Shown piece after piece: positions 26,765 to 55,541 of a stretch of DNA of 64,000 nt. Where the stretch lies: the NCBI GenBank assembly GCA_012295275.1, contig CM022665.1, positions 24,463,946-24,527,945 on the forward strand, given 5' to 3'. The stretch's first letter is position 1. Every line of letters begins with the position of its first letter. Source of the stretch: Chrysomallon squamiferum. Lineage: Eukaryota > Mollusca > Gastropoda > Neomphalida > Peltospiridae. Both the position numbers and the translations under genes were made by a program. The notes under the pieces are model-generated. The model saw only the letters and a list, made by a program, of their open reading frames with translations. It made no database searches and was not told where the DNA came from.

Positions 26765-27108
26765 TCAAGAAACTTCATTTTCATACTGTTTGCGAAAGCA
26801 TTCTCCCACTGGAATAAAGTTCCAGCATCGTTGTTGATACAACTCCCACACATAAGTTTCCTATAAACATTAAAAACAAAAAGAAAAAAAAAAAAAAAAA
26901 TTTCAAACCTTAACAAAGATTAAGCATATAATATATGTAGGAAAAAAAAATGATATTTGAAAAACAAAGAAAAACTTATTTTTTAAATGTAAATTAGTTT
27001 TAATGAATCTGTTTAATAAATAAGCAGAAAAATAAGTTTAATTTTCTTATACATGTAAAATGATTTATTTGAAGTATTCCACTTACAATAATAATAACAG
27101 AAATAATA

Positions 27109-27139
<31 letters not shown>

Positions 27140-27982
27140 GTAATATTGAAAATGAAAATGAAAATGGGAAAACAGAATAGAAAAAGAAAGGTAAAACTCA
27201 CTTGTCCAGTATACTCTGTGTCAGGCTTATTAATTAAGTGCATCAAAAAGAACCTGAATAATAAAAAATAAAAAATAAAATAAATATTTAGTCTTTAACT
27301 TAACATGCTACAGAAAGTACATATGTTTTGCAGTTTTGCCTTATGTTAATTATTGGGTTTTAAAGTTTATTTTACATCTTTTTTTTTCTTTGTTTGTTTC
27401 TTTTAACTGAAATAAACAAAACAATCCTTGACCAACAACATTCTTCAAGAAATAAAAGACAACAATTGGTTTTTAATATTTTTAAAATTTTGTGGAAACT
27501 GCAGTGTCAATAAAATAAATACATGTTTTATTAAAAACAATACTTACATATAGTTCGCAAAATTATGTTCATTTTGGACATGAGTCTCAAACCCATGCGG
27601 CACTTTGTCGAAATATTCTTTTCCAATCCCACAAATGAAACATTTGGACTGAAATTACAAGATATTTTATTAATTAACAAAGCTTATAATATTATGACAT
27701 TCAACTCTTTGAAAACAGTGTTACATACATATCCACTCTTTATTTTTCAAACCGAACATATTGAAACCTTCAGTCAAATAAATTAACCAATAACTTCCCA
27801 TATCTTTATTAAATGGTTATTAATATTTAAATTATTTATCCCTGACATACAAGAATAGTGTTATTAATGATGATATGTAAAACGATAAATATTTAACAGG
27901 TGAAATATCAATAGTACCTCCATGTCTTCTTTGACTTGTTCTAACTGATCTCTCAATTCTCCAAAGGCATCAATAATCAAAC
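26765..27982 (-). CDS. RyR: RyR exons 54-57: S6 extension and C-terminal zinc domain
   Basis: Exons 27918-27982, 27548-27648, 27202-27253 and 26765-26860. They encode the S6 cytoplasmic extension ([13 protein letters not shown]), then a zinc site: Cys2278 and Cys2281 in KCFICG, and His2298 and His2303. The spacing equals that of vertebrate RyR1 C4958/C4961/H4978/H4983. Then come [20 protein letters not shown] and the terminal block ending QYENEVS before TGA. This end is intact and of normal family length. Confidence 0.98.
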
Positions 27983-28719
27983 CTAAAAATGTTAAATGTT
28001 GAAACAAATTTATATCAATGTTAATCATTTTATACATAGTTTAATCTTTGTATTTCCTACAGAAAACAAAAATAAAATAAAATAAAATAAAATAACTATT
28101 TTGATTAGATTATATTTTACAGATAACTAGTTTTCACTTTTATCCAACAAAAAACAACAAATAATCTGTAATTAGAGGGAAAAAATTAATTAGTATTTTA
28201 TGAGTGAATTTGGCTGATACAGTAAAGCAAAAAAAATCTTTATAAATAATAATAAAAGCTGATGACCTTGTATAATGGCCAGCAGAATAACAATGACAAA
28301 GAAGAAGAAGGTGATGTCAAAGAGAATTCGGTACACTTCATATGGATCTCCATCTGCTGGTTCTATCTCATCACCAATTCCTCCTCCAGCCCTCACACCA
28401 GTATGCAGATGATAAACAAAACACTAAAATAATAATAATGAATACAGTTTATATTTAATTATATTTTGAAGTTACTATATCACTGTAGATTTAATTGTGA
28501 ACAAAAAAAAAAAAAAAAAAAAAACACAAATTAATATTTTCATTCATATACTGTAAAAGAATTTCATGCAGACCATTACAATGTGTTTATCAGATTTTAT
28601 CTTTTTCTTTTTAATTTTAATTTTAATTAAGTAATTAATTAATTAATTTATTTAGTACCTCCATGACTTTTATAAAATTCCTATAATAATTTTTTCTATT
28701 CTTTTATTCTATTGATTTC

Positions 28720-28757
<38 letters not shown>

Positions 28758-28812
28758 TTCCTCCCATAATTATTACATAAATTAATTTTGTGAAACAAAT
28801 ATTCAGTTTACT

Positions 28813-28895
<83 letters not shown>

Positions 28896-31800
28896 TTTAC
28901 ATACTTTTAGACTATCAATAATTAAGCGGTAAAATGTGATATTTTACAAAGAACACAAATTAAAAAACTTACTGTCATCATGTCATGGCATTTGTAGTCA
29001 ACCTGGCCATCTTCCTCCTTTACGTAGAACTTACGGAAGAAGTTGAATGCCACAACAGTATAAATATACACCAACACACACAGCAGCATCACAGTCAACA
29101 CCAGCTGAAATGCCCATGTGTTATAAATTAACATTACATAAATCAAAATCAAAACCCTCAATGGGTTTTACTTTCAGTTTGAATAATACAAAATAATAAT
29201 AAAAAGGTAAATGAAATCCTGGAAATAAATATTTGTAATATGAATTTCATCTTTTTAAAAACAGTGAAAATACTCTTGTAGCAAGACAAATGAAAACTAC
29301 ATTTATTATCAACACAAGCAAATGAAAACTCTAAATTATGATATGAAAGAAATCTGAATGAAAATGCATTAAATTTGATCATATCTGAAAATAACAAAAG
29401 TTAATTAATAAAAGTTTTTTTTTTAAATTAGAAAAAAGCACAATATAGCAAGTAATATATAATAATTAACAATTTTAGGAACTAGGATACTAAAATATTT
29501 TTAAAATTTTAAAACATTTAAAAATAATAAAACCCATAAACTCAGTATAGGCATAAAAACATATATGTATGCTAATTAAAAAAAAATTTAAAATAAATTA
29601 AAATAAAAAATAAATTAATAGGACATAGTTCTGCACAAAATGTAATAAGACTAGCAGTAGTTACCTGTTTTCCATTGTGTGTTACAGACTGCATTATGGT
29701 TCTCAGAGTCTTGAAACCAATGGCAACATCAAGCAGGTGGGCAGCGAAGAAGAAATAGTTGAAGTTGCCAAAAACGGAGAACAAAAAATACCAAACTATG
29801 TATAGGAAGGACTGAAAAAAAGCAAATGGATGAAAATTATATTACAACCATTTATTATTAATAAGTTTTCAAATGATATTTTAAAAAATAATGGAAAACA
29901 TCTCTGATTCATTATAATATAAAAAGATATTCTTCAAAGATTAGGTATAATTGTTTTGTATTTAATCTCTGAAACTTATGTAAATTAGAAAATACTGACA
30001 ACCTTAAAACATTAGGAAAACCTTTACCAGTACTATTTTGGTGATACATCAAACATTTAGAAAAAGAATATGATTCAAGGTCACACAAGACAAGCTGTTT
30101 GCCACTGCATCAACAACTCTGAAGTTTTTTAATATTATCTTTGTATAGGCAGGATAAGAAATGGAACTGTTTGTAAAATTTAACACTGAAAAATATGCAA
30201 GATAATAAACATACACATGTTTCAAGACTTCACAGTTTTAATTAAATCTATCTTTCTTTATTTGCCATCATGCAGATTTAATGGACTCGTTAAGAATTCA
30301 CTTTTATGCTTAACAACACATTCTGATTTGCACTGTCTGTTTTCTGTTGAATTGTAACACAGAATATCTACTTACATTGTCAGTGAAGATTACTCCCCAT
30401 TTCCAGATCTGATACTGCAAGTCAATGCTGACCAATCTAGAATCAGAAAAAGAGGAAAGAATTACTATAAGTTTGTATCTGGATTATCAATTCAACTAAA
30501 ATTTATTCAGATATATTTATATTTTAAATATTAAACCAACAAAACTGCTGGTAACAAAGAATAAAATAAGCATATATGGATGCATGGTAGGTGTCATTTT
30601 CGCTTGTTATACCATGATGGAATACAAAAATAAATGAAAATGCCAGATATTCTCAATAAGACATATCTGCAATGATTGACCCATGTTTAATTTTTATTTG
30701 TGATCACAATAACATTGCGGTGTCACAAACTTCTTATTTTATCATAACACTTTATTATTAACAAAGATTGTTGGTTAGCAAGAAACACAATGATTTATAA
30801 ATAATTAGATCATTTATACACAGCGGCAAAAATACTTCAGTGTTTATAAGTCATATGAATATACAATTTTTTAATAGGATTTAAAATAACAGTATGCTGA
30901 GACAGATAAACAACACTTACAAAGCTGTAAATCTTGACTTCTGTTCACTGTCTGCAGTGATAGTATCACCTTTCTCCATGCCTAGCAGATTGCTGATAGC
31001 TTCATAATCATACTGTTCTGAGTAGCGAGAACGAACCTTTTTCTTAACAAACTTGTCCCAGTAACTTTCTGGAAAGGACTGAGTACTCAGCACCAGTTTA
31101 TCCCAGTGTGCCTTCAGGTCATCATCTCCTGGCTGTTCTGCTATATACAGTCCTTCAAATTCAAGTTTTCTAGCAATTTCTTTTTCTCGTTTGAAAATTA
31201 CTAAAGGCACTTTAAGACAGTAGTATCCGACAAGCATGGAGAACGATATCAGTGTGTGTATCACTGCAAAACATCGCATCACTATCTCCAAATAGGAGAG
31301 GTCACCTTCAATTATAACAATCTCTTCAACTTCAGCTTCTTCAGAGTCAGTGGCATTTACATTTTCTTCTAAGTTGCCATCTGCATCTGGCATCACCTTG
31401 GCAACCTACATGGAACATTTTATATTCAGATTTCATTAAATACTGATACAGTAACATTCCACATTATGTAAATTTTATAAATTTCAAACTGGAGAAAATT
31501 AATTCAATGAAGAGAGTAAATTTCTGTTTGATTAGATATGATTAATGAATATTTTTAAAAGAAATATTTGGTATCCTTCCTAGAAACCCTTTCAGAGATT
31601 ATTTTCTCAATATTAAGGAAATAGAAAAAAATATATTTCACTATATTTATAAAATAAATACTTACCTTGTAGAAAAGGAGAATAAAGTTGATGGCAAATG
31701 CCAAAGCCAAAGCCAGGTATTTGAAGTTATAGAAATTTCTTGCAAACAAACTCTGTAAAACAAACAAACAAATTTTAAAAAAAATTCTTTAAAAAAGAAT

Positions 31801-33146
31801 TTAAAAAAACATATATGCACAAAAACATTTTCTGATGAAGTTATTAAATGGTTTAGTTACCAGTATGTATTTTCCATAATCAAAAGAGGGTACTTCTTGT
31901 TCTTCTTCTTCAGATTTCTGAACACCTTCTCCAACAGCAGGATCAACAACACTAGCAGCTCTGTGGAGTAAAATTTTAAAAAATACTGTATATAAAATTA
32001 TTGAATAATTAAAACTTACATTTAGTTACATTTACAAAATTTAATACAGAAAAACATTTCATGCTCTATGTATAAAATGTATTGAAATTAATAATTTATA
32101 AAACTGATTATAAATAAATGCAGATTACATACACTATTCAAATGAGTAGCATATCTAATATAGATTAAAATGTGAGTTTTGTTTCAGAAAAGATAAAATA
32201 ACATACACTTTACGATAACTTACATCAACTTGTTCTGTATGAAATAATCATTGTGATAACAAATTATATAATTCTAATCACATACAGAAAGATCATGCTG
32301 AAGCCATATTACTGGAATATATCATATTTTTCACAAGATAATTATTACAAACTTTCAAACAATAATTATATCATAAAATAATCTGACAAAGAGTTGTATC
32401 CCTCTGTATAGCTTTATTCACATTATATATGAAATCACAATTTTACAAATAAATGCATCATAATATAATGAAAATTTTACCTGACAAGTTCGGGTGTCTG
32501 AATTACAGGTGCTGCCTGCATAGTAGGTGCAGGTGCCTCAGTTTTATACACTATTTTCTCCTGAACTATCTGTAATATGAAATAATATACTTGAATAAAG
32601 TTACAGGCAAAAGTTTCTAAAACTAAGGAATAACAAATTTAAAAACTGCCATTATATCACAGACATTGAAAAAATATGTCTTATTATTTTACAAAGTTAG
32701 CAAATATATATATAAAAAACAAAAATGTTTACTAGATTTATCACTTGAAAATTTGTATCTGTTTTCACTGACTTTAAAGTTTTAGGTTTACTCACACAGA
32801 CATAACACTGAAGCTGAAATGCTCCACACATTAATAAAATCACACTTTCAAACAATACAATAAAAGGTATGCAAATTATTTTTAAACACATTATTTGTAT
32901 ACACACACAGTTTTATGAAAAGGCAAAAAAATAAATAAATAAATAAATAAAACTAATTACTTCAGCCAAATAAGCAAGTAAATACCTCAGTAGTCTCTGT
33001 TGCGGACTGCCCAATGACTCCATTCAGAGTTGTGTCCCCTGCAACACCATTTGGCATATTGCTATCAGCATTTGTTGTTCCAGGTGGAGCAGTGGATAAT
33101 GGTGGGACAGATTTCTCTCCATTCATCACATTTCTGTTAAAAAGTC

Positions 33147-33195
<49 letters not shown>

Positions 33196-36100
33196 GTAGT
33201 AGTAGTAGTAGTAGTACTAGTAGTAGTAGTATTGGTAATATTAGTTGTAATAGTAACAGTAGCAATAATAATGGATAAATCACATTTTACTGTTGGTACT
33301 GCTGTTTGAATGTTAGTTTTAAAGAAATTGTACTGCTCAGTTTTAAAATATAAAACAAAACAATAAATTTATCTCTTTAGATAATATTTATAATCGTAAA
33401 TGTGTTTTGATTCCTGCTATAGATCACACTTTTATGTATTAATTTCATGTTATTAAATTACATCACAAGATTATGCACCAAGTATATACATCACTTGTGA
33501 CTATAATACAGTCAATATAAACACATACTGATTGGTATCCATAGGAGAATCACTAGGTAATGGTGGCTTCAGATCCCCATTTTCATCAGGCGGGTACAAT
33601 CCCACTATTGGTGCACCCAGTGCTAATGGACCCACTGGTGCTGGCGGAACTTCCTCAGCCTTTGTCTCCTCAGCATCCTTATCTCCCATCATCATGTTAA
33701 TGAGAAACTTCATCAGAGTCCTGTAAAACAAATAATAACATATCACAGCCTTTTTAAAATCATGCAGGATATACTTCTTGTGAAAGGACAGAGATATTAT
33801 GAGCATACGTTTTAATTATTCTTAGAAAAGACTCAGTAATATTGTAATGATTAATGAAGAATTACTTATAACATACAAATAACAAACAATAAGAAAAAAG
33901 AAAGAAAAAACAAACATATAAAAAATGAATAAGGATAAGCTAATTAAATAAAAGATAGTTTTATACATGATTAATCTTCCTGGTGATCTTTTTGAAAAGC
34001 AGTTCAAGGGTTCAGAACATATCTGCCATATGGCCTAGAAATCAAATGATTTAAAGTTTCAAAATACATATATTAATAATACCAGTTAAATTATCAGATA
34101 AATGTATAACACAATTACCAGAAAATGTGAAAGATGAGAGTCAACAGAAGGAATGCCATTTTGAACGTGAGTTTGATGGATGCCACAAACAGCTGCCAGT
34201 ATGTCATGCTTTTCACTGTCTTGTAGGTTTTCTTCAGGTTTGTCCAGGTTAGGAAGGAAAGTAAGGCAGACAGGTTGTCTTTGATGAACCTGTATGTCAA
34301 CACAACTGGCTCAAGTACACTGAAATACAAAAAAGATAAAAGTTGTTTTAAAGCAGCTACAATAGCTATCCCCATACTTTTAAATTTTTAAAGTATACTT
34401 GAAAAAGATGAATGTAAGTGTGTTATATTATATACTGAGTCTTAAAATTTTAAACTGCATATATAAGAAACCTTACTTAATATAATATGTATAGCCATAC
34501 CTAAAATGATGATGATGATGATGATGATGATAATAATCATGATCATAATAATAATAATAATAATAATAATGTATAATTTCAGTGTGCTTTGTTAGGTCAA
34601 AAGAAATTTGAAATTAGATTTTACAAAAAGATGAAGACAGAGAGTCAGATGGATGGGTTGAAAGAAATAAAGAAAGACCAGCAAAATGCACAGAAAGTTC
34701 AGAGATTTTGATGAGTTTGTTTTATGTTGGATTGTGAAAAGGAGTTCAGTTGTATCAGTGTTACATGTGTTTGAGTTTTTCTGCTTATTTTATAAGATTA
34801 ATAGTTTAAAAGATAGGGGAGAAACAAAAACGTTTTTTAAATTCGGTTTCATGTCTTTTTCTTTCTTTTTTTGAAATTTTTAATCTGAAATGATATAATC
34901 AAAATTCCAAAATTAACTTTAAGGTTTATGAAATGTAAAATATAATAATAGTAATAATATAATAATGTTGATTAAAAAAAAAAAAAAAAAATTCTGATCT
35001 GTAATCATTATTAAATAATTTGGGACATTTGTTTCTGAAAATGATTGATAAAATAACAGAGTGGTGTTGTAAATGATCAAAATTATTAGCAATGATATTT
35101 GGGGAAAAAAAAGTTATATGTGCAAGCATCAAGGTTTTTAAATTAAGAAAATAGAAATGAACAGTTATTTGGGGCAGGAGTAACAAAATACTGAATAATA
35201 TATTCTGTTAAAAGTACTGTTTTATCATTTAATTTGAAATCTCTTTTCAAATTTAATATTTAATATTTAAATTTACATGTAATACTTACAATCTTTATAT
35301 GTTCAGAATAAATTATAAACTAATTCTGACAATCATTTTCATGAATTAATTAATTAACAGTTAACAAAAACTGGAAACCATCATTAGCACATTTATTGAA
35401 TTTTTTAACAAGTCATGCTTAAAATCAAGGTGCATTTTCGTGGCTGATTTTCATGGACTGAAAAGGTAATAAACAAATTCAATAACCTTGTTCCTGGTTC
35501 TTTTGGTTTTGTTTGACTGAAATAATATCACAACAGACTACAACATGCTATCAACTAAAGATAACACTGAATCTACAACAGAATACATAACATATAATGC
35601 TATTTTTGTATATGTAGTTATCTTAAACAATGTATCTGTGCTCACTATTCCAATAACAAAGGAAATTAAACTGACAATATGGAAAAGCAAAAAATATAAA
35701 AATAATTAATTGCTTTCACTAATAGCATTAGTTAAAAATAGTAGTAATGCTCTAACAAGCAGACAAAAAAAATGTTTAAGAATCAAACCAACTACTAATC
35801 TGTCTTTTAAAATTCAGTTATAAAAAAAGAACATTTTCATTCACAAATTTTTATAACTATTCTATTTAGATGTCTAAACAAGTTCTGCATGCCGATAAAA
35901 GATATGAAAGTTTTTTTTATACATTAAAATCCTTTAAGAAATACAAAATTTGTTTAAGCATTTTATTTCCCTCTTCATTCCAAAATGTTTTCAAGAATAT
36001 TTTGAAAAATTTGTGTTTATTTTAATAATAAAATTACCATATAAAATGCTAAATATATTTTCATAACTGTGGGTGTCGCTATAATTAAATATGTTAGTCA

Positions 36101-38702
36101 GTAATTTTATTTTATTTTTTAATACATATATTTTTTATTGTCCCAAAACTGTTTTATGATAATGAGCTGGTTGGGGCACTAATTTCATTACCATAATTAC
36201 AAAGCTTTAAACAAATGTTACATTCTTAATCTAAGAATAATTTCATCAGTATTTTAACTAATGATCAACTCACCCTCCATCACCACTGAAACCAGCTCCA
36301 CTTCTCATAGCTGCAATCCTCTGTTCTTCAGCACTTATACTTGTTGCATGTTGCATCTGAAATAAAAGTTTATTAAATATTTTTTTATGATGATGAATTA
36401 ACTGACTGTCTTTTGGTTTCTTATCTGTTTAATATTTCAGTGTATGTAAACAGGCATTCTCACTAGTCAGTAGTGTTGTTTTGCTCAACATAAAATTGTT
36501 GAAGTTTCAAATTCTGTGACAGTTTACTGTAGAATGTAATACAAAATAAAACAAATTTCATTATTTAATGATAAATTTTAAGTAGACACCAATGTTTTTA
36601 TGATATTTGCTTATTGTTTTACATATTTTGTTACTTAATCTTTATTTTTGTTTTAAATAATATGCTTATTTATTTATTTATGTTTTCCAATTTCAAACTG
36701 ACAATACCTCAAAGATTGTGTCCTCACAGAAATTGATAAAACTTTCAAGTTTTTCCTTGTCTCCTCCTTCATTTACAACACTGTGTAAGAATGATCTCTT
36801 TGACTCCTGAACAAAAATGAAAAAATTGTTTTTATTAGTTAGAGAAGACTGTCTTTGTATAGTTCAGTTTTATTCAGAATGTTTTTTGTAAATTTTATAA
36901 ACTTATATATTTTTTTATCACTCCTTCATTATTATTATTACTATTTTTACTTTTATAGCTTGTGAAAAATTCTTTTGAATTTGATGATGATGATAATGAT
37001 AATTTCTGGTTTGTATATATCTATTCATTTACTTCTTTAATTTTTGTTCTTCATTTATATATTTCTTTACATGTCAGACAAGATGTGCAGAAATTTTGGA
37101 GAGTATCCTGATATAAAAAAAATTCTTGTTATTCTCATATCTGGCTGATTCATTATTACCTAACCCTTTTAAAAATCGTAATTTAGATTACAAACAAACT
37201 GATTACCTTAATCTGTGGTTTCTCCCACTGGTCAATGTGAGACTGTTTGATTTCAAAGTACACTCTTTCTATTCTGTTGGCACTGCCCATGATCTCAATC
37301 CTGCCCAGGTATGGCTCAAAGTAAGTCAAAACACTGGCTGCCTTTTCCAGGAGCCTCTCGAGTCTACAGGTGAGAATTAAGATTCATGTAATAAGAAAGG
37401 TAGATCAGAGGTACATTATTTAAATACCTGTATGTATACCACTGTGCTTTTATTTTTAGTGGACTAAAATTAACATTACTTTATAATTAGCCAAAAATTA
37501 AAGAGAGATAAATTTGTTGTTTTAAGAAAACATACATAAATTATGAAACTGAAATAACAATGAATTTCTAATATAAATGTTTTCTCCTTAAACACCTATA
37601 TAAATATTTATTTATTCACTTCATATTCTCATAGCCTCTAGAGAGAAAGAATTATATTTTGACAAAAACTGAAATGATGTTTGTATATATAATTATTACT
37701 GAATTCTCAAGAAATAAAGTTTCAAGGTTGTCTGTATCATCAAAAAAAATAAATAAAAAATAACATTTTGAAAAAGATATTTCTTTTTGCTTTCAAATGA
37801 AGAGTGAAAAATCAAAATACACGTAAATTAGTTTAAAACAACAAACCTGGGTTCATTTGGCATATGTTCAGACAGATTGGTAAGCAGTACAGCCATAGTG
37901 AAACCAATATCCTTAGCTGGATTGTGGAAACGATCTGTGAATTCATGGAAATCTACTTTGCCATCATGGTTAGCATCAACACACATCATAATGTATTCTA
38001 TTTCCTCTCTGCCAAAATACAAAAATAAAAATCATTTATGTATATTATTAGGCAATAAGTGTTTTTTAAAGTACATTTTTAAATTTCATGAAAGTACATT
38101 TAAAAATATAGAATTTGTTAATAAAAACCTATAAAGTATATGAAAGAGTATGTAAATTTAACTGCAAGTAAATAATACTCCCAAAAATTAATTGCAAAAG
38201 CTGCATAAAACTTCAAAAAAAAATAAAGAAAGAATAAAAATAAAATAAAACTACACTCTAAAGAAATATTTTGCAGTTAATATAGTCTTTGTGAAAGTTT
38301 ATATGAATATAATTTTATAATCTAGATTATTCGTACACACAAAATGGGTTTATTCATATGAATGTGAAAAAAAAAGTATTATTTTATTATTGCATTAATA
38401 AAAATGCAAACAACTGATATAACAAAAAATACACTGCAAAAAAGGTTAGTCAGAGCATGAAATCCAAGGGGAATGATAAGGGGAAAAATCACATTTTGCA
38501 GTAAATGTTCATAGTAAAATAAGTTTTGTAACAAAAATCAAAATGGATTCTCTGAAATAAAATCTTTAAATTATACACATGATAAATGCTCAAAACATTA
38601 TACACAATAAAATAATTTAAAAACACAAATTAAATCACTCCAGATTTAAAACTAAAAGACATAAATTTTAAAGTTAGACATTTCATTCCACAGTACCAAT
38701 TT

Positions 38703-38733
<31 letters not shown>

Positions 38734-41534
38734 ACTCCTTTGGTATTATTTAGTTTTATTTAGCAAAAATATAATTCTCTTAAAGTTTATTTTCATCTTC
38801 TGAAACTTAATATTATTGAAATATTAAGTTAAGGAGTTAATCAATAAAATGTTTTAACACATTTAATAAATAAAATATAAAAAAACAATGACAAAAAAAT
38901 AATAATAAAAAAGCATTCCACAAAAGGAAAATTTGAAGTTTTCAATAATAAAATTTTAAAAAATAAATCAATTTATTTTTTATAAAAGTAGTCAATGAAA
39001 AAAAAAGATAGTAATAAGCTGCTCCAACAAACAAGCACACTTTTTAAAGGCTTTTATTTTTTAATTTTGATAAAATCAAATCAAATCTGCAACATGTTAT
39101 TTTAAAAGTAAGGCTGTGATAATGATGTAAATTTAACAAAGGGCAAAAAGGAAAAGAAATCATGATGGCTTGAGAAATTTCAAAACACTGCACAAAAAAA
39201 GGTAAAATGAAAATGTATCTTGTCACTTTCTTTTATGAAGTAGCTAAACAAGGATATTCAACCACATAAAAGATGAGGGCTGATTGAGGTTGGGAATGTA
39301 ACAAACAAACAAATGAATAAAAATAATAACTGAAAACAGTGTTCATGTATTTTGATTTATTTTTCTTTGTTATGGTTTTTAGTTACTTTCTATTTTGTTA
39401 TTTTCTTTGCCATTATTTTAACATTATGAAAATGTTTCTCTAGTATGTTATTTAAAATTCAAAATATAATAATTGTAAATAAAACTTGGAACTAAACATC
39501 CATTATTTGTTGACAATTCATTTCAAAATTGCAGTTAAAGGAAAAACAGTTTATTGTAATGTTTTAAATAAAGAGAGTAACACACAGGAATTTTGTGGTG
39601 TTTTTTTTTTTTATTGTTTTTGCAGCATTTTTCAGTGAAAGAATTTATCTTTAACAAGCAGAATACATGGTTTTGTATGGTGGATTCTGTGTGTGTTTTC
39701 ATTTTCTGTAAACTTAACAAATGAAAATCTAAAACCTGTGTGCACAAATTGGGGTGAAAATTGTGAAACAGCAATGAAACATCACTCGGAATGGGAACTT
39801 ATCATTCAATGGACAAAACTCAGGCTTCATGCAGCCAACTTACTCCGAGTAGAACTTTTGGGCTTCCAAAGCCCTTCTGAATTCTTTATGTGAAATCCAG
39901 CCATCTTTATTTGTATCAAATTCCTACAGTAAAATAACAATGTAATACAATGTAGAAATATACATCTGACAGAAGAATATGTACAGGTATGAGCTAAAGG
40001 TATCACAAACCTGGAATATGCTTTTTGGCTGTCCATGGCCTTTCGAAATTCTTTAGAAGAAATGTAGCCATCTTTGTTGGTATCAAACTCCTTTTTGAAT
40101 GCATTAATACAAGAAATTCAGATGAAGATTACAGTACTTAAAAATGATTAAATATGTAAAATAAAAATGTTAAATAAAAATGCACAAAAAAAAAAGTCAA
40201 AATAAGATATAACACAAATTTGTGTCTGTATAAACATTAATGAAATTTTTATCACCTTTGAAAATAATGTTTTTAAATATGCACAGTAAATGAGAAAGTG
40301 TGAAATAGCACCTCTTTATCTAAACAGTGTTTTTATGTGTATTTTTGGATGAAAACAGCAGAATATTCACTCATGGAAATATGTAAGAAAACAAACTATT
40401 TACCAAGAAAGCTTCAGATGTTGTGAGATCCTTCATTTTCAAGAATATGTCAAAGAACTTCAAAATCATCTGCAACGAGAATATTTAACATTCTTGAATA
40501 AAAGCTTTATAGAAGGAAATGAGGTATATTATATTTTACCTAACAATTTAAAGTGATATATTGCAAACACATTTTGCATAATAAATTGCTGAAAATCCAA
40601 ATTAATTTGACTTAAAAAATTTGTAGAAACAATAATTATATCTGTATATAATTTTGTTTCTAGAAGAATAAGATATAAACAAAAACAAAAAGTAGTTAAA
40701 TTTACACCCTTAATTTTTATGATCCATCCATGTAATAATTTGTATAATGTATAGCATGAGCATGTATTATATTTAACCATGGTTAAAATTCTAAAATCAT
40801 ATCAAGCTGGTAAATTATTAAAGCAAAAAGATAAAACAATTTGTTTTAAAGAAACTGAATGAAAAATATATTAATTGTACCTCAACATTACTGGCAGATT
40901 CTACCAAAGTATCCACCATCTGTTTTCCAATTGGTCCATTCATCACATTACCTGAAGATAGTAAAGGACATAAACGTAAGTTATTTTATTAAATATATAA
41001 ATCTAATCAAGTCCTATAAAAATGTGTACACCTTGTGTTATAATTATATTTCTGTTATCCATTGAAAATAATAAATTCCAATTTCATTAAAAAAAAAAAA
41101 ATAATAATAATTCCGAATAAATACTGTGTTTACCTGAAAAAGAACAAAGATAAGAAACCATGAAAAATATGATATAAAAAAACCCTCAATATCTTAGAAA
41201 TTAAATATCTCAAGATATTTAAAATTTCAGATAAATATAATTATAACTGACAAGAAATTAAATTTTTTTGCTAAGCCAGAAATATATATCAAAAGCATAT
41301 GAAGTTATATCATGTCTAATGTAAAAACCTTGAAAGGAATATTAATATTTTTAATGCAAATAAAAAATAATGTCTCTGTCCTGCTCACCTTCCAGCATTG
41401 AAAGCAGCATAATCATCATGTCTTTCTGAAGTTTCATGAACTCACGCAACAGGTCCAGCTGTTCAGGGTCCTGTTAATACCAAAAAATTAAATTATAAAT
41501 TCTTTTTTTAAACTGAATGAGGAATAAACTATAT

Positions 41535-41565
<31 letters not shown>

Positions 41566-44500
41566 GATGATGATGATGATGATGATAATGATAAGAGCAA
41601 CAACAACAATAATAACAATAACAACAGAAACAACAGTAACAATAATAATAATAAAAAATAAATAAAAATAATGATAATAATAATAAAAAAAAAAAAAAAA
41701 TTCAAAATTGCAAATGGTGATAAATTGTTTTCAATTTTACCTTGGAAAGTTTGTCCTGCATGTGCGCAAATATATAGAAAAATCCACCAACAGCATCCCA
41801 CAGTCGGCTGTGTGCCAGAGCCAGCTGGTTCAAGGAACAAGGACCCTAAAAAACAAATATGTAAATCCACTTAATAATTACAGATAATTATCATTTAAAG
41901 TTATTTATTTTATTATTTATTCTTATTTCTTCCCATCTTAAAAAACAACAACATCCAAACAAAAACATTTTAAACTTGAAAAATTAATGAATTTTATAAA
42001 TAATTTTATAACTGTGGTATTATTGGGTTTTTAAAAAAAGAGTATCAAGGTATTTATTATTTTATTATTTATATATATTTTTTTAAACATATAATACAAA
42101 AAATACATTTATTTACATATTTATTTTTCATAAATGGACACATGTTCATAAATAATTTTAGGCTGTACAACTCAAGAAGTTCTGCGAAAAAGCTTATTGA
42201 AAAAACAATTCTGAATTAGTTTATATTCTCATGTGAATTTGAAAATAAAGCTAAATACAGTTCAAGAAAAGTTTAAATAGCTGAATCATTATGGTCTTCA
42301 GTGTAACTGCCAAAGCCCAAACTTTTACTCCATTTACAGTCTTTGATATAAATTCCAAATCCCAAGACTCATTCCATTCACACATTCTGATATACTGATG
42401 TCAATTACCTGGATATATTCAGACAATGTGTTGAACACCTGTGATGCCACTTTGATGGCCTTACAGAAATTGTCTTTGCCAGCAGTGTCAATGATATCTT
42501 TGCCTGAGTAGTGCCAGTAGAAATCCATTATAGATTCCTGTAAAGGTTTATAATCAAAAGTAAAATAAAGCTGTTGTTTTAAAAGTGACTGTATCTGCTA
42601 AAAGATTTATTCTGTAATTGATACTTAAATTTTAATATTTCAGTTGCTTAACATTAAATGTGTATTCATATATTTATAAAACTTGATTGATTTAATTATG
42701 ATCAATAAAAATCCATCTAAAATTTCATATACAGTTAAAATTAAAATTATTTGTAGACTGTTTGGAACAAAAAGATTTGGAGAACTCAACATCTGAGTGA
42801 CTATTTCGAGGTTTTTATATTTATTTTTTCACTTTTATTTATTTATTTCATTTTTTATTATTATTATTATTATTATTATTTTTTTTTTTTTTTTTTCTGA
42901 TAAAATTCAAGAAGGATCTTGTCAGTGTAGTAAATAAATAAAAATAAAACCTTGGACAGCTTGAAAAGAAAATAATCACTAAAGGAAAATGTTGTACATT
43001 AATTTTATTAACAGAAAACATTATAAAGTGTTTTATTATAAATGAAAATATAATAATAATCATAATATTACCTGAAGTCTAAGGACATAGTCTACTGTAC
43101 AGATGATGATGTTCACTGTGGTTGTGTTACCAGCCTGTGTTCTGAGGTAGTTTTGAAATTCTGGCGGAAAATAAATTGAAAAAAAGAAGAATATTGAATA
43201 TGAAAATAATTTTAATATTGGTCATGTTTGCTTTAGCTTAAACTTTTCTCAAAAGAATTTAAGAAAATTCTAATATTATTGTGTTGATGGAAAATAGTGT
43301 ATTCTCAATCCTTTTTTTTTTTAAATCTATAAAATTATTAGTAAAAATTGAAGAATAAACAATAGTACAAATATTAAGAAAAACAATAGTGCTGATAATG
43401 GTGATGGTTACAATAAAATGATAAAAATTCATTTTCTTAGCATCAGTTGTCTGTATGCAGCAATAATGTAAAAAGTAAAAAACAGAAACAGGCTGACAAA
43501 GAATATTTTTAAAATCTAACCTAGATTGTGACCCTCACACAACAGTTGTAGGAATCTGAACAGTTTACAGGTGAACTCAGTCTTGTCCTCCTCATTAGTG
43601 TCAGCACTCATACCCAAACCTTCTGCCTTGTTGGTTCTCTCAAAAGCATCCAAATCCAATACACTGCAACCAAAATTAATAATTAAACTATAGTCAAAAA
43701 TAAAAATTTAAGAAACAAATAACAAAAGCAAAAATATATTGCTTATTTTACGACTTTTTAAAAATGTATCACATTTTGCAATTAAAAACAATATTAGCAG
43801 TGCCTGAAAAAAAGAAAAAAGAAAAAAAAATTCTGTTGTAAGTAACAGATCATGTACATAAAAAAAAAAATTCTGTTTAAAAGAATCAGTGTTTACAAAG
43901 CCAATGATTCACAACAGATTACAAACCTGCACTGCTGCATCAGACCGGCCACTGATGTGAAAAACCCTACATCTTTCTTATCCTTGAGATGCTGCAACAT
44001 TTTCTTGAAGAAAAAAAAAGAAAGAATAAACATATAAATTAAAGACGCTACTGGCAATAACGATGAGGATTATTTTTGCTCATTTCTGTCAGAAATCTGT
44101 TCACACATGCATCTTATGCCATAACCTCTGACAGGACAGGATGGTTTTCATTTTATTTTGACCTTACACTGTAAAATGGCCAATTAATTAAATGAATTAA
44201 ATTAATTCCAACTCAATGATGAAAAGTGAGAAATGATCAACCATGGTTGTACTTTGTAAAATCTAGTCAGCACTTACTTTCTGAACATCAACATTGCCTC
44301 CTCTTAGTAAAGATATTCCTAAGTCAATAGTGTTCATAACCATAGGACCGTGTTCTCCTGAAAAAATGTATTAAAATTGTTTCTAATACATTCAGCAATC
44401 CATTTTTATTTTATACAAATATATAATATTCATTTACTTTTAGTGAATTAAAACCGTTATAGTCACTAACCTCTGCTGGCTCCCATGTAGAGCAGAACCA

Positions 44501-47500
44501 TCTCAGCAGCTCCTCTGTCTGCCAGTCTTGACTGTTCAAACAGAAGTTGTTGTTTCTCCATCTCTTGTTCCTTTAAACACATATGCAAAATGAAGTATTA
44601 AAATAGAAATATCTTCCATATATACTTATCAAGGATTTAAAATGTATGTATTGCTGAAAAGAATCCAGAAAACTGTTTTCATTAAAAAAAAATAATAATT
44701 TAAATTAATTACACAACATTAAAATTTAAATCATAAGCATAAAGGAAGTGAAAGGTATGAAGATTCAGAATGTTATTATTTCAAACAAATTGAAATGAGT
44801 AATTATATGAGTAATTATATTTCATGAATCAGTTCAGTTTGCAATGGCAATTCAGTACATGTATATGTTTTAAAGGAATTTTTTATTTTTTATTTGTTAA
44901 TTTTTTTTTTTTTTTTTACCTTCCAGAATAAATTATTTTACACACAGAACAAAGATGGAACACATTGAAGGGTTTCATAAAATTAATAGCAGAGACTGTC
45001 CAATAAACAGTAGGGAAATATCTCATAAACAGTAAGGACTTTTCAGTAAACAGCAGGGATAGCCTAATACACATCAGGGACTATCCAATAAAAAACAAGG
45101 TTAGACCAAGACACATCAGGGATTACCATGAATAACAGGGATAGCCCAATGCCAATACAGTAATCAGCAGGAACTGCCATATAAACAGCAGAAATTTTCC
45201 AGTAAGCAAAAGGGGAAGATCCCACAAATAGCAATGATTACCGCTACAAATACCAGGCAACATGGATCATAAATTTTTTAATGATCCTTTAAACACATAA
45301 GTTAAAGACAATAATAAAACATCCGAAATGAATTTTTAAAATTATTTATAATATAGACAAATAACAACCTTATGCAAACCATTTGTAAAGCACTAATTTA
45401 CAATTAAATCAAACAATTTGACAAAATGAAACTGCAGAGCTTTGGTTTTAAACATAAATAAATACAGCATTCCATACAGTGCAAAATGTCTCATTTTATA
45501 AGTGCTGTTTATTAATATCTACAAATTATTTCTACTTAATGAGCTATGTGGTTTCCCTGTAGTTGTATAGAAACTTTAAAAAAAAAAATCTAATCACTGA
45601 TTACTGATTATAAACGAACCCACAAAATAATTTTACATAACAATATAATCTGTTTAAATTAGTAAATGTAACTGTGTTTTGATAATAAAGAGTGTAATCA
45701 TACTTTTGTACATGCAATACTACCTAATCTTCTCTGAGATATTTAGTTTTGCTTCTTTTGGAAGACAAAAGAACAAGTGGTTGAAATTTTTTCATTTATT
45801 ATTTTTATTTTCCTATTGTTTGTTCAATCAGAGTATAATTATTTTGCCAATAAAATTTAAAGTTCTTTGAAACAAGTGTAATAATCTTTAAAGACAAAAC
45901 TCAGAAACACAAATCAATTTCTTTTAAAGCTAATTTATAATATCAAATATCCATTTTTACATAATGGAATCACAATCTGTTACCTTTTTCTCTTTTAACA
46001 AACCCATTATTTTGCAATCCTACACATTAGCTGATCAAACTGCATAATAACAGGTATTCGCTGCAGTATGAAATTATTAATTCTGATTTTCATTTCAAAT
46101 TATTATTTCTTTCTTCTTTTTTTTTTCTCACAAACGTTTTATATATTTAAGAATTGAAAATTCTACAACTATGCTACGTGTGGACATTATAAACTAATGA
46201 CTACAGCTACAACATGATGTACGCAGACATTTGTCCATCACAGAGTACACAATGTCTACCTTTAGAATATCCAGTTTGATCTGAGAGTTGCAATATGTTA
46301 AACAAATAAAAAGACATAATACAAAAATCATATGAGAAATAAGTGTTTAACTGATATTTGAATACCTTAAATTGTCAAATAAATAAGATATTGTATTATG
46401 CTAAAAAAACAAAACATCAATTAATAGAAGTTTGAAATTATGATGTGATGTCAATATATCTCATAAAATAAACAGAAAATGCATTCTTAAAAGGCTTAAA
46501 TAATAATATTTTTAAAAATCTAAAACAATAAATATATACAAAAAAATTTAGTATCTACCTGATGAGATGAAAATAAAAATTTAAATAATGGTTTATTGTA
46601 AAAGACTATTAAAGACTGCCATTTGACAGTGTTCAAAAATTATATATCAAGCCATAGCAATTTCTAATAACTAACACTAGAATTCAATTATAATATAGAC
46701 ACATTGCTAAACCTTCTGATGTTTCAAGTGGATGACTCAATTGTTATTTGATTATGATTTGAAACATTAATTTTTTTTCTCTAACTAATCTAGTATATAA
46801 TAGCATCTTTAAAAAAATCTCTCTTTTTTTTTTTTTACTTTGGATTTAGAACATTTACATAATACTCTTTATCAAACACTTTTGAGTTTTATTTATTTAT
46901 CATCATTTTTTTTTAATTGTTTCTTCATTTTATTTTTTGTCTAGTTATAATTTATTTTTATACAAACAACTGTTGTGATTAAAGCACAGATAAATATTTT
47001 GAGTGATTATATGCAGGAAAGCAGGTTGCAGCTTACATAAAGTCTACATTTCATTAAGCACATCTAAAAACAGATTTATGTGAAATATTTACAAATGATC
47101 AAAAAATGATAAAATATATTTGAAGTAGTTAGTAAGAAGAGAAACACCAATTACAAAAGCTTATTAAAAAGACATTTAATTTCTTTACTTACCTCAAATG
47201 ATGGGCCGGGACCTTCTTCATCACCACCATCATCATCATCCTCTTCATCCTCACCACTACAGCTCTGAAAGATTAACATAAAACAAAATAAAAAAATTTC
47301 TTGCAGTGATAATGTATGTAATTAAACAATTTGTTAACAGTTTATTTATACTGTTTATCAACTTATAAATATGATCAGCAAATAATTAAAATGTTACGGT
47401 TGACAAACTTCACATTTACTACAAATGCACATGTTCTCATTTTATATAACTGTAGTTTATTGTTTCAGGTCAGTGCTAACCTTGCTCATAATGCCAGCAT

Positions 47501-48572
47501 AAGCCATATACAGTGAATCTTCAGGTAGACTGCTTGTTTGTTCTTTGGTTGCTGCTCGGCTCAGAGCTGTGATGAGCTGTGTCAGAGAGTCTGGTTTTAC
47601 TTCCTCCTCCACATCCTTCTTTTCTACTTCTTCTTCTTTCTCATCAGAACGCTATAAGAGTAAATAAATATGCATTCTGAGTAAAGGAAAATTAAAGCAA
47701 GCAATAAAGCCACATTCCATATTGTGGATAAATGAAAAGTGAAGACAAGTAACTAAATCAAGGTGCTCTAACAGTAAATGTATAATGTTGGCAATCTATA
47801 GAAAAATTACTGAAGGAATTTGGAACTGTTCTTCTTGAAATATATTTTAAAATATGTACTTCAATAAATGATCTGTTTCTGTAATATTTTTTTATAAAAA
47901 TCTGTCATTTGGAAAGTGTCTGCATATGCATATAGTTTGTGGTAGACCATGTCATGTACTTACAGTCAGGTCCTCAATAAGGATGTTTTTGTCTGGTTCC
48001 TCTGTCTGCAGCCACTGTTCTTTGTAGTGTTTCAGGAACAAATTGATTGCTCGGTGCCTGAAAAACAATGCACAACAATTCAATGTATGGTTTTTATCAT
48101 AACTATTTCTTTGTTTTACCAATCCATTACAGCTGAGTGTGTATCTTTCTGTCAATATTTTGTGTATCTTTGGGTCTAAATATTGCCTAGGGGTTTACAA
48201 ACAAGCTGACTTTTAAAAATAAAATTGAAGTGAATATAATCACACAGACATGAAGTATTTAAGGCTGATCTCTGTGGAAATTAACAGACTGTTTGTTAAA
48301 TTACCTGGGTAAGCTGTACAGAGGAATCATTCTGAAACATGCCATTACAGCTCTCTTTCTTTGTGATGAAATTACTTTCTTCCAAGCACCTTTAGCTATA
48401 GCCTGTGGATGCTCAACCTATTTGGAGGAAAATATATTAAAACAAAAACAATAGCCAGAAGACTTTAGAGTACATAAGATAAATTCAAATGACAAAAATT
48501 AGAAAGGACACCAAGAAGAAGAAGAAGATATATATTACTGTTAACATATACAAACAAAATAATGTATATAAA

Positions 48573-48603
<31 letters not shown>

Positions 48604-50210
48604 CACTAATTTACAAATCTTAAGCCAAATAATTATTAAAATATACAAGGAGATTTTTGTTATATAGAATATTTTTTTTAATAAATATGGATTTTAAAAA
48701 TGATCTTACTTTTGACATTAGTGATTCATATCAACAGATAAGTATTATTATTTAACACGTGAACATAATCCAAAATTCTTAACTTTTTTGCTTGGTGTAT
48801 ACAAAACAATTAGGACAAACTTCTAAGATTAACTAAATATCAGACTAACCAAATGAAGTCCATGCATGACTTTTGCCATGGAGATGATACGATCAATGAT
48901 TTTGCTCTGACTAAGCTGACTCTGGCCAGCCATTTTGGTGTCTCCAATTTTGCGATATAAAACTTTCTGCCACTGTGTCGCTTCATCAGTGACCTGGGTA
49001 AATAAAACAGAAATTATATAATATTTTAAATTGAAGTATTATACAAATTTTCTTTCATAGTTCATATAAAGTATTTATTAAATCAATTTCAAATTTGAAT
49101 TAAAAATGTTTTACCGAAATACATTATCTAAATGAAATCATGAAGTGTTTCACAAATAAATCTTTAGGATAAATGTATAAAAACTATTATATAATTTATT
49201 TATTTATTAATTATTTTCCTAATTATTTCTGTGCATAATAGTAATAATTACATATTTTATTATACGTAAATATTAGCATTATAAACCTATAAAATAATAG
49301 TAATAATAATAACAATAACAATAAAATAATAATAATAAATAAATATAATAAATAAAAAAAATAAATAAATAAATAAAATAATAATATTAAGAAGAACAAG
49401 AACAAGAACAAAAAACAACTGAAAACAGTAAAAATTAATGATCAAACTGACCTGTTCCATCATCTCCAAACTTTGCAGAAGAAATTCTTCAATGTCTCCC
49501 TCCGGCTCCTTCTAAGGCAATAAAAAATTAGAAAAAAGGCCAAGATGAAGAACACCATGCAAACATTGCACACCATGCACTAACACTGGTTAGGCATTCT
49601 GCTGGTGTCAACCCACACATAGTCATTGTTTAATTAATCATCAGTAATTTATAATATGGAAAAACAATAAGGGAAACAACAGAAAATACTTCAGGTAATG
49701 TATTTGTAAAAGATAAAGTAAGAAACGATAGTAAAAGTTAACAGTGGAAATAAATGAAGAAAAATAGAGGGAAAGAATGAGAATGAGAAATGTGTGAGAG
49801 AAAGGAAAAGTTGAGTTCACAGAAAAGAAAATCTTGACCTAATGGGAAGTTATGTAATAGAAATGATAAATTCATGTAAAAAAAAATTAAAATTCTGATA
49901 AGAAAGAAAAAAAAGATCATTTAGAGAATAGAAATGAAATATAAAATATCAGAAATAATAATTGTAAATAAAAACATTTCAGATAACCAAAATGAGAATA
50001 TATGCAACAGAAATTAAAAACAAAACAAATAAAGAAACCAAAATTACATACAGAAATAAATGTTGAAATAACAGAAATAACTAAACTGAAAATTTTGTAC
50101 AATCAGATTATAAAATTTAATTTCAAATGAAAGATTTAGATTAAGAAAAAGAAAAAAAAAGAAAAGAAAATGAAATTTCAATAAAATAAAATAATAATAA
50201 TAATAATATA

Positions 50211-50267
<57 letters not shown>

Positions 50268-51683
50268 CAACAAATAAATTACTTAATTAATTATTAATAA
50301 TTTAAAAAATAGGTAACAAATTTGATAAAGAAAAAATTCATACAATGTAAAATGACATAAGAATAATAATGAAAAAAATAGTCATAAATAAAAAGAACAG
50401 TAATTATGTATATAATATAAAAAATTAAAATTAAAATAATTTAGAAAGACAAAATAAAAATGGAAAATCTGAGGAATTTTAAAATAAAAATGAAAACCAA
50501 ATTGAAAATGAAAAGAATAAAAAAATTAAAATTTATATTTCTTTCTAAGTAAAAGAAAAAAAAAAGAAAGAAGGGAAATAGAAAAGAAACAACAATAAAA
50601 TATGATATTAAAGTTCAGTATTATTAAATCCATAATTATTATGGTGCAGATATTACAGTTTTCATAATCCTAAATATGTGCATAATAGATGAATAAATTT
50701 TGTTTCAATACATATTTTATTATGTATTTTTTATACGAGGGAAAACAAAAATGTTGGACATGCTCACAGTCCACATCAATGTTTAAATGAATCACACACT
50801 GTAATTGCAAGCAAAGTGCTTCAAATGGTTTCATGTGGGCACAGTAAAAACAAATTAAAATAATCATACATGTGCAAAAATGCATGACTGTGATCAGATC
50901 CATTACACATATCCATACACAAGAACAAAATAAAATTTAAAATGCAGGACAGATAACAGATGGGGCAAACCTCAAGAACAAAATAATTTATTCTTTAAAT
51001 TATGTTTTTTTTATATAAGTTATTATTAATAATGATACTAATTTTAAATTAGTTAAATAACTTTTTAAACATTATGGGCATTACTTAATAGAACAAGATT
51101 TGTTACCTGTCCTAATTTTTTAATTTATAAATTTTGCTATTGCAAGTAAACAGAATACATCTGTATAAGTATATAAATTAAACTTAATTCACAATAAAAT
51201 TCACAATATCTTTTCTTGACCTATTAATATTAATCTAAAATTTGATTTTCACTGTTTTTGCTGTATCTCTGAATTTTTCTTATTCAACTGCCTATTTAAT
51301 CTTCAACATACCTGAATCAATTTTTGCTTAGCCTGTTGCAACAACTCTTGCTCTCTGCCAGTGAAGAAAGACAAACCAACAGGAACCAGTCTCTTCAGAC
51401 AAGCAACATTCAGACTGTTGTGTGGCTCCAAGCGAGTCTTCCGTTCTCGTTTCTTTGATCCAACATGGCGTTTAGAGCTTGTGCCACCATCCTGGTTTGG
51501 CTCCATCTTGGATATAGCCAGGTGCTTTGACTGACTGGGCATAATCAATGCCATGTTGTCCACCTCATTGTGTGCTACAAAGTTCTGTTCTTCTCTCATG
51601 AACATCTGAAAAAACCATTATGTGAAGTTATGAATTTGTATGTAATGTATGTAAACAAAGACAAGTGTGCATATTTGTATTAA

Positions 51684-51716
<33 letters not shown>

Positions 51717-54700
51717 ATGTGAAATAATATTTAATTCAGTGTATACTTAACTGATGATTATGCTTAAGAATTTTTATTTATAATCATGTGCTTTACAAAT
51801 GTTAATGAAACAATGTTCAAAATAATTATGAGGAATTTTGTTACAGTACAGTTTGTATTAATCCATTTTCAGTTTAATCTATTTACCATTATAAGATTTA
51901 TTTTAAAAAAGAAAGAAAAGAAAACAAATATTGCAAATACACACACAAGCAAATATTTCAATACATGTGTCTTTTATTGCATTAAGGGAAAATTTAGTAT
52001 TTTCCTATGTTTTCACTTACAAGAGATCTTGACCAAATGGAGAAAATTTCTGCCACACAGCTAAAGAGTTCCTCACACTCTGCAGTTGGATATTTCAGCC
52101 AATGAGATCTGTGCAGGTCTACATACTTGATGAGCAGTGGGTAGAAAGCATACATGTCACGTGTCAGGTTGTTGTATTTCTGAAATAATGCACATGTAAT
52201 TATTTATTATTATTATGACAACAAAAATTTTAGAAGCATTAGTCAAATATTTATTATATGAAGACTGAAATCATTTTAATGAAGCTGATTCAATTCAAAA
52301 GCGGTAAAATTTTAAATCTTTCCAAAATGCTTAAATTTTATGTATATTTAATTCTTATTTAAAAGTTAATTCTCACAGCAATTAATAATAGATATAAAAA
52401 GCATTAAAGTTTATTAAAACAAACGAAATTTGTAAATATTCTCATAGCTTTAATTCAGAAATCTAGTGTATGAAGCAGCAAGCCTGAAAGCAAAACAAAT
52501 ATAAGATTTTTTAAAAATGCAGTTGGAAGAAAGATTTAAAAAAAAAAAAAAAGATAAAGATCCTAAAATTAAATAAAAATTATTATGTCAGTCCTTTAAT
52601 TTCTATAACTTTATTAAAATTATTTAACATTTTATTTTTTACCTCCTGCACTGTTGCTTCCATGTCAGAAGTGTCCGAAACCGTTCTTTTCTCTATGGCC
52701 AGTCTTTTTTCAAGGTGCTCCACACTCATTGCAGTTTCTTTCAGTTTTTTGGCAATCGGCAAGAAGTGATCTTTTATCATGTCAGGAGTAGAATTGGCAA
52801 TAATTGGCTGTGTTCGAGCTATTGAAAAACAAAAGTGAAAAAAAATGAAGTATCTTTTAATATGTATATATGCTGATGAATGAATGAATGGCATCTTAAA
52901 GCAAAAAGCAAAGTTAATTTGTCTGCTATTTTTTTTATTATTGTTATTTGTTATTTTTTTTTATGGTAAGAAATAATTAAAACTTTTTTTTAGATTTTAT
53001 TGTGTTTGATTTAAAATATTTTTGTTAGTAAGGTTACCAAAATTAATAAATGATTCATCAAGAAACAAAATTTTAAATAAAATAAGTTGGAAATGTTATA
53101 ACTGGAATACATACACTTGTTGTAATTATTTTATTTTATTTTATTGACAGTCATAAAAATAACACTATCTTTGATATTTATCTAATTAAAACTCAAGAGT
53201 ATTACTGGCAATTCTGTTCATCCAGGGGGCATCTTCAATTCCAATGTTGTTGCCTATCAAACTGAGTACATTGCCCAGAACTCCATTCATCTGCTCAGCT
53301 GTCACTGCAGACAGCTTGGTACTTCTGAAAATTAAAACAAGTCAAGAAATTGGTTACATTTTTGAAATTATACATATTTATTTATTTTAAATAATAAGAA
53401 TTAAAGAATCTTTTTATATTGTAAACTTTTTAACAAATAATTGTAATGTAAATTTAAAATAAAATAATAATAATAAAACATTCTAAACTTTTGAAAAATA
53501 CAGCCAATATCACAGGGACCACCAAACAATATTGAGTTAACCAAATACCAACTCAAACAACTTTATATAGATAAAAAATATTGTTTGAAAATGAAATACA
53601 TGTATATATTTATTTTTTATGGAATAATACAGTTTTAACACACTTTATAATAGTGCTAATTGCTATACAGTTACTATGGCTAGTTCTTGCCAACAATAAT
53701 AACATGCATACTGAATCCAGATTAGAGTTATGAAACTAATTTTATGTTTGAACATTTAATACAAATTTAAGAATAAAATTACATCTGTTTTATGGAAGAA
53801 TAAGTAACAAATTGAACTATCACACAAATAGGCCTAATTAACAAAGTCCACAATAATGCTGATAATGTCCATTATCTTTTAATGTTTGATCTTTTCATTA
53901 ATAAAAAAAAAATTTGCCATAAATTTATTTGGTTAAAATCAGTTTCCATTTTATATCTAATTATATTAACATAATAACAAAAAATACTTACTCCTCTGGT
54001 TTAAGAGTATCAGTTCTCTGATTCAGCCAAAATGGCAGATAGCTAAACAAAAAAAATAATAATAATAAAATAAATAAATAACAAAAATAAAAATAAATAA
54101 TAATAATAATAATAATAATATAAAATATTAAAAGTATTTTGTTAAAAATAAATCAGTTTATCTGAGTATTTTATTTTATTTTATTTATCTTCTGACATAA
54201 ATACATGATCTCACTGCACCAGATAAGTTTTAATACAGAATTCATCCAGATAATATTTCTAAATAAATAAGTTTAAAAAAACAACAAAAATTAAACAAAA
54301 ATTTCTTTTACAAAGAAAAATATGCTTGAAAATCTAAGTAACAGATAACACATTACTTTAAAAAAAAAAAAAGATTTCATGTCTTTATGAGATAAATATT
54401 TAACCCATATACCTGCACAGCATTGGCAGAGTTACTTCAATCACATGGGAAGCCTCATTGTATTTTTCTCTTGAGTTGGAGAGTTCTCCAATTTCTGCAA
54501 AAATCTTTTCTAAAGTAGGCAGATTCTGTGCCAGCTGGTCCATTACCTCTGAAATACATATTCACAAAAACAATGCAACAATGAACATTTTAAATATAAA
54601 CATCTGTGATTAAACATGTTATCCTCATACAAAAATTGACCTATAACAAAAAAAAAAAATTAAAATTCAATTTTCAGTTAAATAAAAAAAATAAACAAAT

Positions 54701-55486: not shown

Positions 55487-55541
<55 letters not shown>

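Follow-up and report, generated by a model that had tools for sequence, protein, structure and literature searches.

The ryanodine receptor (RyR) gene of the gastropod Chrysomallon squamiferum carries two versions of one exon, a and b, each encoding the Ca2+ loop and the exiting helix of EF-hand 1. Their use as a mutually exclusive pair is supported by the reading frame and by comparison with other molluscs. The pair lies in a stretch of 64,000 nucleotides of contig CM022665.1, hereafter the window. The explanation judged probable here is that an old tandem duplication gave rise to the two versions, and that splicing between them tunes the low-affinity inhibition of the channel by Ca2+ and Mg2+.

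The RyR gene and its exon pair

The 3′ half of the RyR gene occupies 26768..63877 of the window (minus strand), where it aligns with residues 2692-5060 of the RyR of Gigantopelta aegis, the closest protein to the gene. Matches to RyR entries of the PDB (best E 1.1e-35), with homology across the C-terminal half, establish its identity. Splicing with exon b gives a stop-free stretch of 1088 amino acids that shares 93.8% identity with the Gigantopelta protein and 74-82% with the RyRs of the five other molluscs compared. The GC content of the window is 27%. Its portion downstream of the gene (1-26700) is rich in simple repeats and holds eight open reading frames of at least 90 amino acids, none striking by eye. 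Two pieces of the Gigantopelta protein were left unplaced in the gene model. The segment EKEQTKKLPKKRM before LEPV, missing at 36273-34377 (minus strand), is perhaps a small or optional exon, and the junction modelled there is doubtful. Residues ~3249-3256 are missing at 57468-55072 (minus strand), and an open frame near 56.46 kb looks like the corresponding small exon.

Exon a (40011..40090, minus strand) and exon b (39844..39923, minus strand) are each 80 nt long, stand in tandem in a common phase, and are separated by a spacer of 87 nt (39924..40010, minus strand). An earlier note on this DNA had described them as such and as about 70% identical, and the counts bear this out, with 56/80 nucleotides and 19/26 whole codons identical, or 19/27 residues if the split last codon is counted. 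Exon a is bounded by GT and AG, ends in Arg and has a-like orthologues. Exon b ends in Glu and matches the Gigantopelta aegis RyR (P0002) in 27/27 residues. The upstream exon (40404..40469, minus strand), modelled against the same protein, runs in frame into either version; the downstream exon (37847..38008, minus strand) encodes EF-hand 2.

With exon a alone or exon b alone, the reading frame stays open. Joining both exons leads to a TAG and omitting both to a TGA, as the earlier note had predicted, and reading the frame through places both stops inside the EF-hand 2 exon. Constitutive use of both exons is thereby ruled out. Each transcript would have to take exactly one version, since with both or with neither the shifted frame runs into a stop, and this frame logic, together with the presumed decay of faulty messages, would enforce exclusivity.

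Among the exons searched, the duplication stands alone. Forty-five of the 47 modelled RyR exons had a peptide that could be compared with the whole window, and only one, the a/b exon, was convincingly matched at a second place (tblastn, E 8.9e-11). At E <= 0.05, the other matches were four weak ones, all from a single exon (E 0.009-0.047), and an off-frame alignment of the a/b pair itself (E 0.008). A single convincing second copy among 45 searched exons argues that the pair is not a product of chance.

The eight residue differences between a and b fall at loop position 7 (Tyr/Trp), loop position 10 (Ser/His), the final residue (Arg/Glu) and five sites along the exiting helix, exactly where the earlier note had located them. 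Its claim that all Ca2+ ligands are kept also holds, as D1, N3, D5, S9 and E12 are common to both versions. Both loops fit the canonical 12-residue EF-hand pattern, with acidic or polar residues at 1, 3, 5, 9 and 12, Gly6 and Ile8. The note had further spoken of a swap of the whole EF-hand 1. This stands for the loop and the exiting helix, but not for the entering helix (..TTSEAFL), which is encoded at 40469-40404 in the upstream exon, outside a and b. The swap spans the Ca2+ loop, the exiting helix and the start of the linker between EF-hands 1 and 2.

Splice sites and the spacer

Splice sites were compared on a gene model in which consensus sites had been slightly favoured when the exon bounds were set. 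The acceptor of exon a (..TTCAAAAAG) scores poorly, with a lower score in only 1/47 acceptors of the gene, and its donor is strong, with 39/47 donors scoring lower. For exon b, lower scores were found in 23/47 acceptors, which makes its acceptor the median one, and in 17/47 donors. Because b has the better acceptor, exon b looks like the default and exon a like the regulated version.

The 49 modelled introns measure 113-2622 nt, and the 87-nt spacer is shorter than all of them. This would agree with a size barrier against double inclusion of the kind described for other Ca2+-related exon pairs (PMC9177970). The spacer contains only two YTNAY branch motifs, one 21 nt past the donor of a and the other 6 nt before the acceptor of b. 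An AG intervenes between the first of these and the b acceptor. The intron after exon b holds a TGCATG (UGCAUG) at 39828..39833 (minus strand), starting at intron position +11, a possible Rbfox-type site. Across the window the motif shows no enrichment (34 observed, 30.4 expected), and its position after exon b is suggestive only.

Position on the channel and possible function

The a/b segment aligns at equal length with residues 4079-4105 in the EF-hand region of rabbit RyR1, and includes the equivalents of D4079 and K4101. In RyR1, both residues are described as touching the S2-S3 loop of the adjacent subunit (PMC10832476), and a K4101-D4730 bridge is described for the inactivated state (PMC8947763). 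The K4101E mutation shifts the Ca2+ IC50 from 0.85 to 2.4 mM, and K4101A and two D4730 mutants are listed with no significant change in Ca2+ inhibition (PMC10832476). Placing the EF1 of RyR2 into RyR1 is reported to make Ca2+ inhibition weaker (PMC12119028), and the EF-hand/S2-S3 contact may matter less in RyR2 (PMC10832476). The alternative segment falls on an element that RyR1 mutagenesis has tied to Ca2+-dependent inhibition. Like the laboratory swaps between RyR1 and RyR2, this natural exchange of EF1 offers a direct test of its contribution.

Most of the S2-S3 cytoplasmic loop is encoded by the exon at 30921..31405 (minus strand). The loop was aligned to RyR2 and the RyR1 numbering was taken from PMC10832476, in which RyR2 E4660 corresponds to RyR1 D4730 and RyR2 R4666 to RyR1 R4736. 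The window has a Glu at the first of these positions and an Ala at the second. Among the matches listed, the K4101-equivalent Lys is present in 166/168 proteins matched, and in the two misses the script had matched EF-hand 2. Of 33 proteins asked for the S2-S3 stretch, 32 yielded it, and the D4730-equivalent is Glu in every one of them. In these 32 invertebrate RyRs, the position of the RyR1 disease site R4736 is taken by Ala, Gln, Ser or Glu. With no Arg at this position in the 32 RyRs checked, they lack one of the two inactivation bridges of RyR1, and the Ala in place of this partner makes the transfer of the RyR1 mechanism uncertain.

The residue adjacent to the K4101-equivalent Lys is Ala in a and Phe in b, and the residue four positions further is Arg in a and Glu in b. 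Since the segment includes this lysine, which by homology to RyR1 would touch the neighbouring subunit's S2-S3 loop from the exiting helix, tuning of Ca2+/Mg2+-dependent inactivation is the likeliest role of the swap. The two isoforms would have common Ca2+ ligands and would differ in loop positions 7 and 10, in the exiting helix of EF-hand 1 and in the charge at its end. The choice between a and b may then alter the affinity of EF1, the inter-subunit contact or both, giving different low-affinity inhibition by Ca2+ and Mg2+. Contact with the acidic S2-S3 stretch might be favoured more by exon a, with its Arg, than by exon b, with its Glu, and channels containing a might be the more inhibited, a direction that is guessed.

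The swap might instead act through regulation by calmodulin or luminal Ca2+. The EF-hand domain of RyR2 is needed for the response to ER Ca2+, and the EF-hands are needed for calmodulin regulation, according to a review (PMC8301844); moreover, the molluscs checked lack one of the two bridge partners known from RyR1. However, the remaining bridge residues (Lys and Glu) are conserved, and exchanging EF1 in RyR1 alters Ca2+ inhibition (PMC12119028), which makes this route rather unlikely though worth serious consideration.

EF-hand 1 segments in relatives

Three protein searches, one of which gave the best 120 of 162 matches, yielded 181 proteins. The database was clustered at 90%, so isoforms of one species are mostly hidden. 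The third search, for shorter proteins, gave 24 matches, none recognisable as a mollusc by name or reading. Among the matches listed, 179 RyR proteins had a usable anchor, and of these 168 have one EF1 segment, ten have none and one has two. Nine of the ten begin after the segment and the tenth has a shortened one. The protein with two, P0123 of Plakobranchus ocellatus, has an a-like and then a b-like segment in tandem, in the same order as the window. It is evidently a faulty gene model that joined both exons, and is the only model with both versions among the matches listed; the published RyR proteins of other gastropods and of bivalves carry a single version.

An Arg before the EF-hand 2 helix was found in 7/169 proteins matched (among the matches listed), all of them gastropods or bivalves: Haliotis, three Elysia, Mya, Mercenaria and Ostrea. 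The 27 residues of the segment were compared over 30 rows, made up of 28 hand-chosen proteins, mostly molluscs with near outgroups, and the two Plakobranchus segments. Arg is last in eight rows (the seven proteins and Plakobranchus copy 1). Glu is last in 12, which include Gigantopelta, Lottia, Littorina, two Biomphalaria, Bradybaena, Pomacea, Pinctada, Sinanodonta, Plakobranchus copy 2 and two unnamed proteins. Another residue is last in the remaining ten (Mactra, Tegillarca, Mytilus, Capitella, Liolophura, Lingula, Lineus, Octopus and two unnamed).

The comparison of related species that the earlier note had proposed revealed a-like and b-like segments between identical flanks in gastropods and bivalves. 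Among the sequences compared, neither of the two outcomes that the note had set against the pair turned up. With 75/75 flanking residues identical, EF1 agrees in 18/27 residues between Mercenaria and Mactra and between Haliotis and Gigantopelta, and in 17/27 between Mya and Mactra and between Elysia and Biomphalaria. The contrast between flank and EF1 gives Fisher p values of 4e-7 to 2e-6 for these four pairs, which were picked post hoc as discordant. The EF1 segments of Mercenaria and Mya, in turn, are identical in 25/27 residues. Identical flanks around sharply different EF1 segments make a single exon evolving in place hardly plausible. In gastropods, a-like rows match window a in 18-23/27 residues and b-like rows match window b in 21-27/27. 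Mercenaria (22/22) and Ostrea (20/20) are tied in identity to a and b, and Tegillarca is ambiguous, with 19 residues to a and 17 to b.

Two versions retained through the frame constraint could be functionally equivalent, the swap being neutral, and the unchanged Ca2+ ligands and K4101-equivalent would agree with this. However, the last residue marks the classes by charge, with Arg confined to the seven gastropod and bivalve proteins above (among the matches listed), and both versions have persisted for long, so that equivalence seems improbable.

Age and selection

Exons a and b differ with a dN of 0.20 and with saturation at synonymous sites (pS 0.76, from 14 sites only), which indicates that the duplication is old and under purifying selection. 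A recent duplication is ruled out by this saturation and by the tandem pair in Plakobranchus. Judged from the sequences, the pair is very probably older than the divergence of the lineage of the window from Plakobranchus. It likely also predates the split of gastropods and bivalves, an age that is not proven and is less sure than the gastropod one. A single origin of all a-like segments was not recovered in a tree of the 27 residues, in which the a-like segments of Elysia and Plakobranchus separate, with low support, from the others. The gastropod-bivalve age consequently rests on shared residues, namely Ala or Ser at loop position 10 and Arg at the end. If cephalopods, chitons and other groups lack the pair, it would offer a genomic character of a rare kind for tracing how molluscs are related.

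Exon a could also be a decaying relic, a pseudo-exon beside an exon b that alone is spliced in. Its weak acceptor would fit such decay, as would the lower match of a-like gastropod rows to window a than of b-like rows to window b. However, exon a is open and in phase, its donor is strong and its ligands are intact, dN is well under dS between the versions, and an a-like segment stands in the RyR that represents Haliotis, Elysia, Mya, Mercenaria and Ostrea, all of which renders decay very unlikely. That relatives differ in a and b through having two RyR genes, or through errors in gene models, is scarcely credible, even with one version per representative and an artefact as the sole model with both, because a single gene of the window has the two versions 87 nt apart, one Plakobranchus model has them side by side, and a-type and b-type species have identical flanks.

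Relation to known systems

Alternative EF-hand exons are already known from alpha-actinin, as are duplicated Ca2+-related exons from P/Q channels and OGDH and exon pairs from insect RyR. Exons 19a and 19b of ACTN1 (alpha-actinin) are likewise mutually exclusive and encode EF-hand 1. However, one ACTN1 version does not bind Ca2+, whereas the molluscan RyR keeps its ligands in both and is not an on/off switch. A brain transcript of ACTN1 includes both exons, whereas double inclusion breaks the frame in the molluscan gene. The 37a/37b pair of CaV2.1 (P/Q-type) encodes an EF-hand-like part. These too are alternative exons of a calcium channel, cited among duplicated Ca2+-related exons in PMC9177970, whose reference list includes a title on a splice switch for Ca2+/calmodulin-dependent facilitation of CaV2.1. 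Unlike RyR, CaV2.1 is a plasma-membrane channel encoded by an unrelated gene and working through calmodulin. Exons 4a and 4b of OGDH form a pair that switches Ca2+ sensitivity, with a size-restricted intron between them; this is an on/off switch in an enzyme, and distant branch points have been shown there but not in the RyR pair (PMC7969005).

Insect RyR also has a mutually exclusive pair, SPRY2 a/b (IASI/ASI), regulated by stage and body part (PMC3342285; PMC3989282; PMC3787966; PMC5778984). It lies near residues 1135-1173, about 3000 residues from the molluscan EF-hand pair. A second insect pair at residues ~3720-3756, computationally predicted to be mutually exclusive, covers the calmodulin-binding site rather than the EF-hand (PMC4309888). 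Tandem exon events are given for RYR3, fly Ryr and worm unc-68, with no position stated (PMC9741552). For unc-68, exon 1 and the DR2 region are treated and five further alternative exons are given, and the term EF-hand is absent from that text (PMC7644089).

The earlier note had suspected that an EF-hand switch in RyR was new, and within the open-licence full texts, among the matches listed, no prior report of such an exon pair was found. Gene databases may hold such isoforms unremarked. The position of the pair at the RyR EF-hand is unusually informative. Invertebrates are described with one RyR gene, and splicing has long been proposed as a diversifying route (PMC7644089). A broader proposal, offered tentatively and with less than even confidence, is that a splice switch that arose before gastropods and bivalves separated yields two channels with different EF-hand 1/S2-S3 interfaces and hence different Ca2+/Mg2+ inactivation, doing by splicing what vertebrates do with RyR1 and RyR2 as separate genes, and that decapods independently made the neighbouring segment alternative. 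If true, this interface would be a repeated target of exon duplication, in molluscs and in decapods.

Decapod RyRs have an alternative segment just before EF-hand 1, for which no report was found in the open-licence literature, among the matches listed. The decapod swap affects the entering-helix segment, in another phylum, and is known from proteins, whereas the molluscan swap affects the loop and the exiting helix. The two decapod versions, ..VELILRYFDMFLKLRDLTSSTTF.. and ..VEMIVRFFNLFLRLKEVTSSASF.. with close variants, occur in 16 and 7 of 23 rows, respectively (two unnamed). Isoforms within one species differ in this segment in Macrobrachium rosenbergii (P0034/P0036) and Scylla paramamosain (P0061/P0065).
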